A stretch of DNA of 35,491 nucleotides from Dehalococcoidia bacterium. Lineage in GTDB: Bacteria; Chloroflexota; Dehalococcoidia; Tepidiformales; Tepidiformaceae. Positions within the stretch are counted from its first letter, which is position 1, and each line of letters begins with the position of its first letter. Location of the stretch: the NCBI GenBank assembly GCA_020432045.1, contig JAGQHB010000018.1, forward strand, positions 1 to 35,491, in the 5' to 3' direction. The notes beneath the pieces were generated by a model. It ran no database searches and had not been told where the DNA came from. It saw only the letters and a list, made by a program, of their open reading frames with translations. Both the position numbers and the translations under genes were made by a program. Positions 27,976-35,290 of this stretch are shown here, in pieces.

Positions 27976-29817
27976 GTGAGCACTGACCACCCTCAGCGCC
28001 CCGGCGTCCTTGCTTGGTCCCGGAGACGTCGTCTCGGACCGACGCTCGCCGCCGCGTCTACTGTCGTGCTTGTAGCCTTGGCTCTGTTATGGGCTACCAC
28101 TGTTTCGGACGATTCCGAGGAGCCCGTCGCGAACTCAGCCACGACGCAATCCGACGCCACCAACACAAAGGGGCTGCGCAGCAAGCCACTGTGATTTTCG
28201 ACCGGAACGGACCCGGCCGAGGGATTGAACTGGGAACCCTGACGTTTCCGGGTGCCGGCGCTCCAGGAGACAAGGTCCCTGCCCGGCTGTTTATCGAGAA
28301 CCAGGTCGAGCCCCGGCTGGTGCGAATGTGCCAGGCCGGCTGGCTGCCCGCGCCGCCCCCGGGTATCGACTGCGTCGAAAACGTGCACACCGCCGGCTAT
28401 CGCGTGACCAGTACGCTCGATTCGGCGCTCACGGACCAAGCAACAGGTCTCCTCGCGGAATCCATCCAGATGGGCCTGCAGGCGGGATGCGCGTGCCGCG
28501 ACGGGGCCATCGTGAGCATTGATCCGCAGTCAGGCGAGGTCCTCGTGTATGTGCCCAACAACGACGGAGATCCAGCCCAGCGTAACGAAGGAGTTGTCGA
28601 CATCGACCAGCTGATAGAGAGCAACTCGCCCGGCACGGCATTCACTCCGGTTGCGTTCCTCGCCTGGATGCATGGCCTCGCGAAAGCACCGATGAGTTCA
28701 CTCTGGGACACCAATCCGCTTGAACTCGATGGTCGCGCAATCACCAACTCGCGGGCCGGCGGAGGCAGTGAGGGACTGATCAGCGCGCGGGCGGCTCTCG
28801 CTGCAACGCAGGAAGTGGCCGCATTCCGGGCGGCTTCCGAGGTTGGCATCGACGCCGTCCTGGAAATGGCAGCGCGGCTCGGGATAACGACACTGGCGAT
28901 GAACTTCGACCCGACGTGGAGGAGCCACCCGGAAATGGAGTATGGGGCGAGCCTTGCCAGCGCCGGGGTGAATGTGCGCCCGATTGACATGGCCTATCTG
29001 CTGGCCACGATCGCCAACACGGGGGTCATGGCCGGAACAGCGACCCTCGCTTCCGAGCTTGATCCGGGCACTCTTCAGAGTCTCTCGCTGGCCCAGGGCT
29101 CGGACTACGACCTGGCACTCATGCAATCCCGACAGTTCGTACGAGGCGACATCCGCCTCCCTGGAACCCGGGAGCTCGACCCAATCGTCGTCCTCGAGGT
29201 GTCAGACCGGGATGGCAACCTCCTCTTCACACAGGGTGAACCGGAACGGAAGCGAACCATCGACGCGGGCTCGGTGTGGCTGCTGCACACCGTCATCCCT
29301 CGAGTTCTGGATGTCCGGTTATTCCCGGTATGTCGCCTCGGTTGTCTGGATCGGCAACTCAGACAACTCACCCGTGAACGATGGCCCTGCGCACAGCTAT
29401 GCGACCTCATCAGCGGCTGTTCGCCTCTATAAGACCTGGATGGGCGCCTTTCACGATGCAATCCAGGCGCGGGGCAAGTTCAGCGTTGCCGCGGACTTTG
29501 CCGATCTTCAGCCCGACAACGTGACGTTCGGACCGTTTCCCACCACGTCCACCGAAGTTGGGGTCGCCCCGCGCGACACGGGGGACTATTCCGCACTTTG
29601 CCAGCAGATGATCGATGCATGGTTCCGCACAGACATTCAGTACGAAGACGAGTGTGAAGCAGTGGAGGTAGACTCCCGGGATGGTTCACGCGCCACCGAC
29701 ACGACGCCGGCAGCAATAAGGGTCCTCAAGATGTTCCGGACCCTCCCCAGTCTGTTGCCTGAGGCCGCGAGGGCTCTTGCCGAGAGGCTGGGGATTCCAG
29801 TACCGCCCCTTCGGTAA
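27976..29817 (+). pseudogene. decayed class A penicillin-binding protein
   Basis: Three fragments in changing frames make up one relic. The first (GTG 27976 to 28194) has Arg-rich RRRRLGPTLAAASTVVLVALALL, an N-terminal anchor. A frame change near 28150-28190 leads to ATVIFDRNGPG, then directly to the transpeptidase domain from YRVTSTLDSALTDQA (about 28399), so the transglycosylase domain is gone. SxxK is replaced (PGTAFTP instead of PGSTFKP) and SxN by ATQ. Near 29290-29302 a second frame change and deletion remove the KTG region, then FWMSGYSRYVASVVWIGN resumes to a normal C-terminal end. It is catalytically dead as encoded. Sequencing error could explain frameshifts but not the missing motifs. 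Confidence 0.75.
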
Positions 29818-30004: not shown

Positions 30005-31096
30005 CTACGCGCTTGAACTGGATCGGGAGTCGGGGAGGACGGCGACGCCCTGAATGGCCGGCAGGACGCCGAGGCGAGCTGTGTTGAGTTCGCTGAAGAC
30101 GAAGCCCGCTTCCAAGATCGCTTCGCGCGTGTTCCGGTTTGGCCGGCATCCCCCTCCAAGGACACGCCACGCGGGCGTCACCACGTCCATCGCGCGTCCC
30201 CATACTCCTGCCTGCGGACGCACATGTTCCCAGAAGCGAAACTCACCATCTGGCCTGAGTACGCGGCGAACCTCAGCGAGGGCCTTCGGGAGGTCGTCGA
30301 CGTAGCACAGGGTGAGCGTGGCGAAGACGGTGTCAAACGATTGCGCGGGAAACGGGAGGTTCTCGGCCGGTGCCTGGTGTAGCTCGACGGCTCTCCCCGA
30401 CTGGCGTGCGTGGCGCCTGGCGCGGGCCAGCATGTATCCATCCGGCTCGATGCCCAGATATGTGACGTCCGACGGGAGATAGCGCCAGTTGGCTCCAACT
30501 CCGAAACCCAGTTCGAGGACGCGGCCGCGTGAGCCTGCAACGGCAGAGCGGCGCGCCGCCCGTTGCTTCGGCCCCTGGTGCTTGGTAACCGCGTCCCAGA
30601 ATGCAGCGAAGAGGCGATGTCCGGCGGCCACTTGGGCATGAAAGATAGGCTTCGGGACGAAAGAATGACAGCGGCCTGGTTCAGCGAGAATTGGCTCGTC
30701 CGTTCCAACGACGAACCGTATTCCTCCGCCTGTCGCTTCCCCGAGTTCGGGCCGGTCTGGCAGCAGGACCTCGAAGCGCGCTTCCACGTCGGCGGCCACC
30801 TCGCGTGAGGTGCGCACGCGCCAGACCACCACCCGCGGGATGCTGATGTAGCGGAGGAGGACGAGGGCCCAGTCCTCCAGCGAGCGGCCGGCCGGCTGCC
30901 AGAGCGAGATAGCGGCGGTCATCAACAGCACCGTTGTCCCGGCCGCGAGACGGACGCCGAGCGGCAGTGGCGCTTCGCTCATGGTCGAGTACGCCAGGGC
31001 CAGGCCGATGATGGCCACCATCAGCTGGCGCATCGTCAGCCCGGCAAAGGCCTTGTCGTCGATGTTGAGGTGAGTGGGGACTTCGTGGCGTTGCAC
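30005..31096 (-). CDS. PrgI-domain / SAM-methyltransferase fusion
   Basis: A 363-residue protein from GTG 31096, chosen because GAGGAG lies 6 nt upstream (an ATG at 31102 abuts that site). Residues 1-96 are a PrgI-family membrane protein: EVPTHLNIDDKAFAGLTMRQL, two hydrophobic helices (about 27-38 and 46-66), then GRSLEDWALVLLRYISIPR and VVVWR. PrgI is a VirB3-like component of conjugative type IV secretion. After a linker of about 60 residues, residues 160-356 are a class I methyltransferase: motif I VLELGFGVGANW, GIEPDGYMLARA, NLPFPAQSFDTVFATLTLCYVDDL, FWEHVRPQAG. No conjugation gene follows. The fusion is either a new architecture or a deletion joint in a decayed element. Confidence 0.75.
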   Translation of the reverse strand: MQRHEVPTHLNIDDKAFAGLTMRQLMVAIIGLALAYSTMSEAPLPLGVRLAAGTTVLLMTAAISLWQPAGRSLEDWALVLLRYISIPRVVVWRVRTSREVAADVEARFEVLLPDRPELGEATGGGIRFVVGTDEPILAEPGRCHSFVPKPIFHAQVAAGHRLFAAFWDAVTKHQGPKQRAARRSAVAGSRGRVLELGFGVGANWRYLPSDVTYLGIEPDGYMLARARRHARQSGRAVELHQAPAENLPFPAQSFDTVFATLTLCYVDDLPKALAEVRRVLRPDGEFRFWEHVRPQAGVWGRAMDVVTPAWRVLGGGCRPNRNTREAILEAGFVFSELNTARLGVLPAIQGVAVLPDSRSSSSA

Positions 31097-31139
31097 AGGC
31101 ATCTCCTCATCGGTGTTCGAGGAGCGCGCGCTAAGGGCG

Positions 31140-31209
31140 GTTCCATGGGCGTTCCAGGATCCGGGCCGATCCGTTCCAACGTCGGCTCTTCTGTTCCAAA
31201 TTCGCTCCA
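31140..31209 (-). repeat. five phased TGGAAC repeats
   Basis: On the plus strand GTTCCA occurs at 31140, 31151, 31173 and 31193, with GCTCCA at 31204. Spacings of 11, 22, 20 and 11 nt keep all copies on nearly the same face of the helix. They lie 44-113 nt before the minus-strand start at 31096, where a cooperative regulator would bind. Confidence 0.45.
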
Positions 31210-31485
31210 AACGCAGATCGCTCAGCGGCGGCTGAGGGGTGGTCTCGGGCCTGCCTCGCGCTCGATCACCGATACAACCTTCAATCGCGCGGGATAGATT
31301 CGCAAGTCCGGCACCCATGGTGTTCGGCCTTGCGCAGCTCTTCACTCAGGACAACTCGATTTGACAGATCGGCCCGTACCTTGTGTAGAGCCGCGACGAC
31401 CTGAGCCGCGTTCGCGATGTCACCGAAATCCGCCCCCAAAGGGGGCGACGAGGGCTCGGGACTAGTATCCGCATGGGAGGACGTC
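31210..31485. other. intergenic, no secure gene
   Basis: This completes the 389-bp gap between the fusion gene and the exported protein. A minus-strand frame from ATG 31487 to 31281 (68 codons, ending in ESIPRD) has no ribosome site and shares its start with the well-supported plus-strand gene. No hairpin or other element is convincing. Confidence 0.3.
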
Positions 31486-33946: not shown

Positions 33947-33993
33947 TGGAGCGGGCGACGGGAATCAACCCCGCGTATCCTGCTTGGAAGGCA
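33947..33993 (-). other. 3' half of tRNA-Gly(TCC), attachment-site remnant
   Basis: Read on the minus strand the segment is the anticodon loop and 3' half of a tRNA-Gly: CTTCCAA loop, stem GCAGG, variable ATAC, T-arm GCGGG/CCCGT, acceptor CGCCCGC, discriminator T and CCA. The T-loop reads GTTGATT instead of TTCGATT. The 5' half is absent; upstream sequence diverges within the 5' anticodon stem. A displaced 3' half is what integration into a tRNA gene leaves behind. Its orientation puts the element to the right, where the integrase is, with the intact tRNA expected further right. Confidence 0.7.
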
Positions 33994-34540
33994 CGATTGC
34001 AACGGCCTCCCCGTTCTGGAGCCAGTCGGCGTCTGCGGCCGAACGCATGTGACGTGCCACTTCCGAAAGCCTATAGCCCGTGTCGCGGCGAGTAGCGATC
34101 ATGCGCTTCGATCGCGCGCTCCGCGGCCGCAGAAGCGCCGTAGCGGTCAACCATGGCGCGGCGTGTCTCCCGCACGAAGCGCAGTAGCCGGGATCGGCGT
34201 CCCTTCCCAACTCTACGATAACCGGGACAAGCTCTTCGGGAACGCGCGGTGGCTTCATTCTCGCGATCGGCGATTCGCGGATCTCGTCGGTGTCGACCAT
34301 CCAGGCGAAAAGCCGGCTCACGCTCCTGAATCGTTGGAGCGCCGTCTGCGCGGCCAGGCCCTGGCCGCCGTCGGCCCCCGGTCGCTGCAGGAAGCGCATC
34401 CAGTCGATAACGTGCGCGCGGGTGACCTTTGCAGGGTCGGTTGGCATTGCCTGGGCGCGAAGGAAGTCGCCAAGCTGCTGGACGGCGATCCCGTACGTCA
34501 GCGGTGTACCGGCTTGACGTGCCGGGCCCTGGAGTGATGT
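33965..34540 (-). pseudogene. truncated tyrosine recombinase (phage-type integrase)
   Basis: The core-binding (SAM-like) domain is clear from LTYGIAVQQLGDFLRAQ through KVTRAHVIDWMRFLQ, QRFRSVSRLFAWMVDTDEIRESPIARMKPPRVPEELVPVI (about 34500-34220). Beyond VPVI the reading frame loses the family pattern. DTGYRLSEVAR, resembling the segment with the first catalytic Arg, appears again before the frame ends in the tRNA-Gly remnant (stop at 33965). The remaining catalytic residues, including the Tyr, are missing. The N-terminus abuts permease debris near 34540. It is too short to be active (200 codons or fewer against about 300). Confidence 0.65.
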
Positions 34541-35290
34541 GGATATCCGACCCCGTCGCATAACGCGCGTCATGGAACTTGGCCCATTCGTATGAGGTCC
34601 TAAACGCGGAGAGGCTAACCGAGAGCGCGACGATCAGCCCGACGACGATCGCCCCATTGACGATGGCCCACACCGCCGTCCGACGCTTCGTCGAATCAGA
34701 CTGCGGGCTGGATTGCCCGGCGACTGCGACGACGACGGCTCGCTACGATCCTGTGCCGAGCCGACAACCGACCCATGAGCAGTGAACCGGCGACGCAGGC
34801 CGCGACGGGAAGCACGAGCAGCGACAGGTTCAGCTCGACGGCCCGGCCTAAGTGAGCGGAACCAGGTGCGCCCTCAAAGGCGTTCGTGCCGATGGCCGCG
34901 ATCGTGCCAACAGCGAGAGCGAAAACCCCGGCGATGTCCAGTCTTGCCGGCCTCCAGAGTGGCGAGGGCTCGCGGAATCTCTCCCGTTTACCATTGATTT
35001 GGCGGTTGATCGCCGTGCGTCTGCCCAGGTACAAGGCAAGCCCCGTCGCCACGAATCCTCCGGCCGTCCCCATGGCAGCGGAAGTCGCGAGGCTTGCCGT
35101 ACTGGCGCGGTTGAGCAACTCGCGGCCGACGATTATGACAACCGGCAAGTACCCAAGCACCAGGCCGAGGGCGGTGCCAAAGGTGGTGAGCACGCACGTT
35201 CGTAGGAAATGTTGTCGAGGAGGTAATCCTGTTGAGGGGCGATGGCGTTGATGTCTTGAGCGATGTGGTTGGTTTGGGCTCGCGCGTCAC
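34540..35290 (-). pseudogene. frameshifted FtsX/MacB-like permease fragment
   Basis: Reading right to left on the minus strand: a piece with QTNHIAQDINAIAPQQDYL near 35270-35215, then after a frame change VLTTFGTALGLVLGYLPVVII and further hydrophobic stretches to about 34696 (four membrane segments). After a second frame change near 34700 comes AVWAIVNGAIVVGLIVALSV, SYEWAKFHDARYATGSDI and TPGPG. The last pattern (long helix, then short periplasmic ARYxxGxDIxxTPGPG) resembles the middle of FtsX-type ABC permeases. The 165-codon frame 34696-35193 could be mistaken for a gene. Family assignment is moderate; decay is more certain. Confidence 0.45.

Follow-up and report, generated by a model that had tools for sequence, protein, structure and literature searches.

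An open frame joining a truncated prgI gene to a class I methyltransferase in a Dehalococcoidia genome is most probably a one-off deletion or rearrangement joint

Introduction

PrgI/VirB3 proteins are mainly associated with VirB4, and VirB3-VirB4 fusions have also been mentioned (PMC12102498). A literature search on PrgI with methyltransferase and fusion returned nothing relevant. In the stretch of 35,491 nucleotides analysed here (hereafter the window; contig JAGQHB010000018.1 of a Dehalococcoidia bacterium, assembly GCA_020432045.1), a single frame nevertheless joins sequences of both kinds, each with close counterparts in described systems. The first part resembles the PrgI/VirB3-like subunit of type IV secretion systems (T4SS) (PF12666; MPF-FATA PrgI), with 86-90% DNA identity over 30742-31214 to the prgI of intact islands in relatives. 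However, whereas prgI is the first gene of these islands, ahead of VirB4, the copy in the window is a stub truncated at codon 118; VirB4 does not follow it and was not found elsewhere in the genome. The second part resembles stand-alone Methyltransf_11/UbiE-like class I methyltransferases from this family of organisms (across the entire domain, identity is mostly 47-60%, and motifs and C-terminal region are shared), from which it differs in having the prgI stub ahead of it in the same frame. A more distant counterpart, the phosphatidylethanolamine N-methyltransferase of R. thermophilum (8ys9), shares the class I fold at only 26% identity. As a whole, the locus recalls ICE or IME remnants with deletion joints, in which part of an operon is kept and the rest is lost, and further stubs occur in this genome and in the family; unlike such remnants, the stub in the window reads in frame into a neighbouring gene.

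Results

The frame runs from GTG 31096 to TAG 30005 on the minus strand (window 30005-31096) and stays open for 363 codons, which divide into PrgI (residues 1-118), a linker of 37 residues and, at about residues 156-355, a complete class I methyltransferase (Table 1). An earlier note on this DNA had described a continuous PrgI-methyltransferase frame with a well-placed GAGGAG; the frame was confirmed, and the GAGGAG, 6 bases ahead of the start codon, is kept in nearly all relatives. A structure model of the 363-aa frame contains two helices (residues 22-40 and 46-66) and a confident, complete methyltransferase fold, separated by a region with pLDDT <50 across residues 87-155. Neither residues 119-155 nor the corresponding DNA (30742-30630) found a match in the relatives' loci that were compared, and the linker is predicted to be disordered and without structure. 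Given this lack of matches, the predicted disorder and a GC3 of 0.49, compared with 0.89 for the PrgI part and 0.74 for the methyltransferase, the linker was probably intergenic DNA formerly.

Table 1. Features of the frame and of the related islands
Feature	Position	Strand	Evidence
Conserved segment ahead of prgI containing repeated TTGGAAC-like words	31137..31214	-	relatives align by blastn from 31208-31214 onwards
Stub of prgI (PrgI, VirB3-like): start codon GTG and the first 118 of ~129 codons	30742..31096	-	86-90% DNA identity to six islands, all ending at 30742
Joint; 30742 is the last base homologous to prgI	30741..30742	-	DNA comparison with islands
Linker, residues 119-155, probably former intergenic DNA before the methyltransferase gene	30632..30741	-	no match; GC3 0.49; pLDDT <50
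SAM-dependent methyltransferase of class I, complete; GTG 30631 (residue 156) is its likely native start	30005..30631	-	profile, homologue starts, model
Defence-gene gap between TrbL-side and PrgI-side T4SS operons	L041 6590-10192; L043 1781-6116; L044 7080-11019; L054 6540-8700		

The boundary between stub and linker is sharp. On the prgI side, the DNA aligns from 31208/31214 to 30742 with six islands of four genomes (three in G017 and one each in G023, G027 and G007), at 86-90% identity and with the identical end base in all six. In relatives, prgI continues for about 11 codons past the equivalent point, giving a PrgI of ~124-130 aa, and then overlaps the start of a VirB4-like gene through ATGA. 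Downstream of prgI, these relatives have genes for a VirB4-like N-terminal part that matches no Pfam family, for a TraG P-loop ATPase, for a DnaG-like primase and for a TraG-D_C protein; the window sequence beyond 30742 is related to none of them. A boundary confined to a single base is what would be expected if the assembler had joined two unrelated metagenome stretches at 30742, making the frame an artefact, and the state of the assembly (115 contigs at draft level, 3.67% contamination), together with the several prgI copies per genome carried by relatives, would favour such misjoins. However, GC content is alike on both sides of the joint, on the prgI side the boundary showed no repeat or shared word, and a degenerate prgI stub on contig C35 of the same assembly makes stubs plausible for this genome. 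The similar GC and the C35 stub speak for a real joint, and we regard a chimera as unlikely.

To what extent the fused architecture exists elsewhere was assessed at three scales. Among 60 related genomes, strong matches fell into two separate sets: the PrgI-like ones extend from residue 1 to 115-127, those to methyltransferases from ~155 to 357. None covered both halves, and no full-length homologue was found. Residues 79-220, taken as a query spanning the junction and run against 294 sampled genomes of the class, likewise gave PrgI matches ending by residue 127 and methyltransferase matches mostly starting at residue 153-158, with no match joining the two; a few methyltransferase matches reached weakly into the linker, some of them through stop codons. 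A pattern scan of GTDB species contigs recovered only PrgI-side relatives and no fusion. In these searches no other species yielded the full-length homologue with the same linker that a conserved fusion family would have. These searches leave the tethered-methyltransferase architecture proposed in the earlier note unsupported, since none of the three (60 relatives, 294 class genomes, GTDB contigs) returned a full-length homologue. They agree instead with its other proposal, a joint left by a deletion, with the start signals of PrgI retained: in relatives prgI overlaps a VirB4-like gene and methyltransferases are encoded separately. PrgI followed by VirB4, a separate methyltransferase and no full-length homologue is also the outcome that the note had set against a real fusion.

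A functional fusion, in which the PrgI hairpin would anchor the methyltransferase at the inner membrane as a 363-aa protein made from the prgI promoter and ribosome-binding site, could draw on the open frame, the conserved prgI start signals, the modelled pair of helices (22-40 and 46-66) next to a complete and confident methyltransferase fold, and the absence of a clear Shine-Dalgarno before GTG 30631. Against it stand the failure to find a homologue of the fusion in the 60 relatives, the 294 class genomes or the GTDB contigs, and a linker that looks non-coding and disordered. The ancestral PrgI partners VirB4 and TraG were not found in the assembly either, leaving no known channel for tethering. 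Moreover, chance would produce an open in-frame joint about once in ten times: 37 random codons at 57-64% GC are stop-free in about 25-37% of cases, which, multiplied by 1/3 for the frame, gives ~8-12% of such events, and selection is therefore not needed to account for it. We consider this reading very unlikely. It is likewise very unlikely that the joint is expressed as a very young gene fusion, a channel subunit having been co-opted in a single lineage as membrane anchor for a small-molecule or lipid methyltransferase.

Taken separately, the methyltransferase half has the features of an intact gene. Methyltransf_11 matches residues 194-287 with 81.6 bits (E 6.5e-23; Pfam cut-off 21.2 bits), motif I and the remaining methyltransferase sequence are intact, and residues 156-355 are modelled as a confident complete fold (mean pLDDT per ten residues of 82-98 over 161-360), so that profile score, motif and fold all place it in the family. 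NCBIfam gave no match above the curated cut-off for the methyltransferase. The best Foldseek match was PDB 8ys9, the R. thermophilum enzyme mentioned above (TM-score 0.79 by target length). Only stand-alone genes match this half (43-60% identity), most of them starting at query residue 154-161, and the genome itself carries a stand-alone paralogue (C28:28012). Because most stand-alone homologues in relatives begin a few residues ahead of a conserved GHR motif, GTG 30631 (residue 156) is the likely native start. No clear Shine-Dalgarno was read before this codon, which is equally true of several stand-alone methyltransferases of relatives, and no sigma-70-type promoter match for separate expression was found. 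Judging from sequence and model, the protein is an ordinary class I methyltransferase with predicted activity.

The prgI half presents a different picture. PF12666 matches residues 6-84 with 24.6 bits (E 3.9e-5), slightly short of the curated gathering cut-off of 27 bits, while its 83-85%-identical relatives score 30-31. An adjoining VirB4 in a T4SS locus is present in relatives and missing beside the stub. Homology to PrgI/VirB3 appears secure on sequence although the gene is incomplete, but with a score below the Pfam cut-off and no neighbouring VirB4 we do not file the stub as a working PrgI. Its frame is free of stops and frameshifts. The changes specific to this lineage number 3 at first, 2 at second and 6 at third codon positions and alter 4 amino acids, a pattern no more relaxed than in intact relatives. 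This lack of decay suggests either that the joint is young or that the PrgI segment is still under selection. The TTGGAAC-like words upstream of prgI (window 31137-31214), which we take to resemble ECF-sigma -35 elements, recur inverted at the block A/TrbL end of islands (e.g., L040 1758-1817), and a cargo at L048 8942-9769 includes a gene for a sigma-70 region 2/4 protein.

The rest of the genome holds half of the element. Contig C53 retains an intact A block (T4SS pilin, NlpC/P60, TrbL), with TrbL at 95% identity, while protein searches of the assembly did not find VirB4, nor was TraG or any of the VirB4/primase/TraG half found. By DNA, the first 6.6 kb of the B block were not recovered except for two prgI stubs and weak primase-region matches on contig C101, which are probably the housekeeping dnaG. 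As the genome is a draft, VirB4 could sit in an assembly gap. The second stub, on C35 (L055 15506-15923), corresponds to window positions 31199 to 30783, carries a frameshift and is cut at codon 104. Between its cut end and the 3' end of a gene for a phage terminase large subunit lie 35 bases; on its promoter side, Hma-like and SIR2-HerA-like genes for defence occur within about 20 kb. Half an element and two stubs fit the loss of the B operon. In the window itself, the end of block A, which lies on the other side of the cargo gap, is absent save for the shared upstream repeat. The genes on the promoter side of the stub were considered as element cargo and rejected, having neither synteny nor family support. 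A short frame on that side (window 33965-34573, minus strand) weakly matches the phage integrase family phrog_1 (E 7e-4) and is possibly a broken tyrosine recombinase. Elsewhere in the window, a transpeptidase-like frame (28014-29817, plus strand) matches only positions 1-180 of a 299-position profile and is followed by an overlapping unmatched frame; it is probably a broken penicillin-binding protein gene.

In relatives, the two conserved blocks are divergent and enclose a variable gap of about 0.2 kb to about 4.5 kb, as measured at loci whose compared sequence includes both blocks. In this gap G017 has SIR2 and HerA, G027 has GajA/GajB-like (Gabija-like) genes and G023 a Ppl-like gene, and the gap has the look of a hotspot for defence cargo within an ICE-like element. 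The label ICE-like, assigned here from gene content, is based on the T4SS blocks together with a Replic_Relax protein and tyrosine integrase into which the B block continues in one G017 island, and a serine recombinase that follows the B block in G007. The family has further prgI stubs, whose cut points differ. Four of them, in three genomes, are cut near codon 46-51 (L047 5890-6095, L048 5894-6155 and 9984-10231, L049 6299-6557) and keep ~200-270 bp of the TrbL-block end across the cargo. Truncated prgI copies forming a mobile unit with a common cut site do not explain the window, since the stubs there and on C35 are cut elsewhere (codons 118 and 104). At L048 5796-6142 and 9887-10232 (G019 C52), two truncated units, each made of the TrbL block end, cargo and a prgI start cut at codon 48, stand in tandem right after an ffh-like gene. 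The last ~98 bases of this gene are repeated before the second unit, within a 347-bp direct repeat (92.5%); the site could be an integration site in the 3' end of ffh, a gene named by sequence reading.

Discussion

The PrgI-methyltransferase frame is, with good confidence, a one-off deletion or rearrangement joint. An ICE-like element would have been decaying in this lineage, losing its VirB4/primase/TraG operon and leaving behind the prgI promoter region, the ribosome-binding site and the first 118 codons. The event would have broken prgI at codon 119, and its other endpoint would fall within the intergenic stretch preceding an unrelated methyltransferase gene, which would have placed the stub directly upstream of a stand-alone methyltransferase, with intervening DNA that happened to be open and in frame. 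The methyltransferase would still work as its stand-alone relatives do, translated from GTG 30631 as its own start or, passively, by read-through of the stub. We infer the direction of these events; no parental sequence turned up for the methyltransferase side, so that the event itself is not directly seen.

The fusion as such is of little importance and does not look like a new protein design. It is a clean case of a mobile-element remnant creating an apparently novel domain architecture, and calls for caution when architectures are mined from draft genomes. The parent element is of more interest, being an ICE-like T4SS island that carries variable defence genes (SIR2-HerA, Gabija-like, Ppl-like) between divergent operons and leaves stubs behind.
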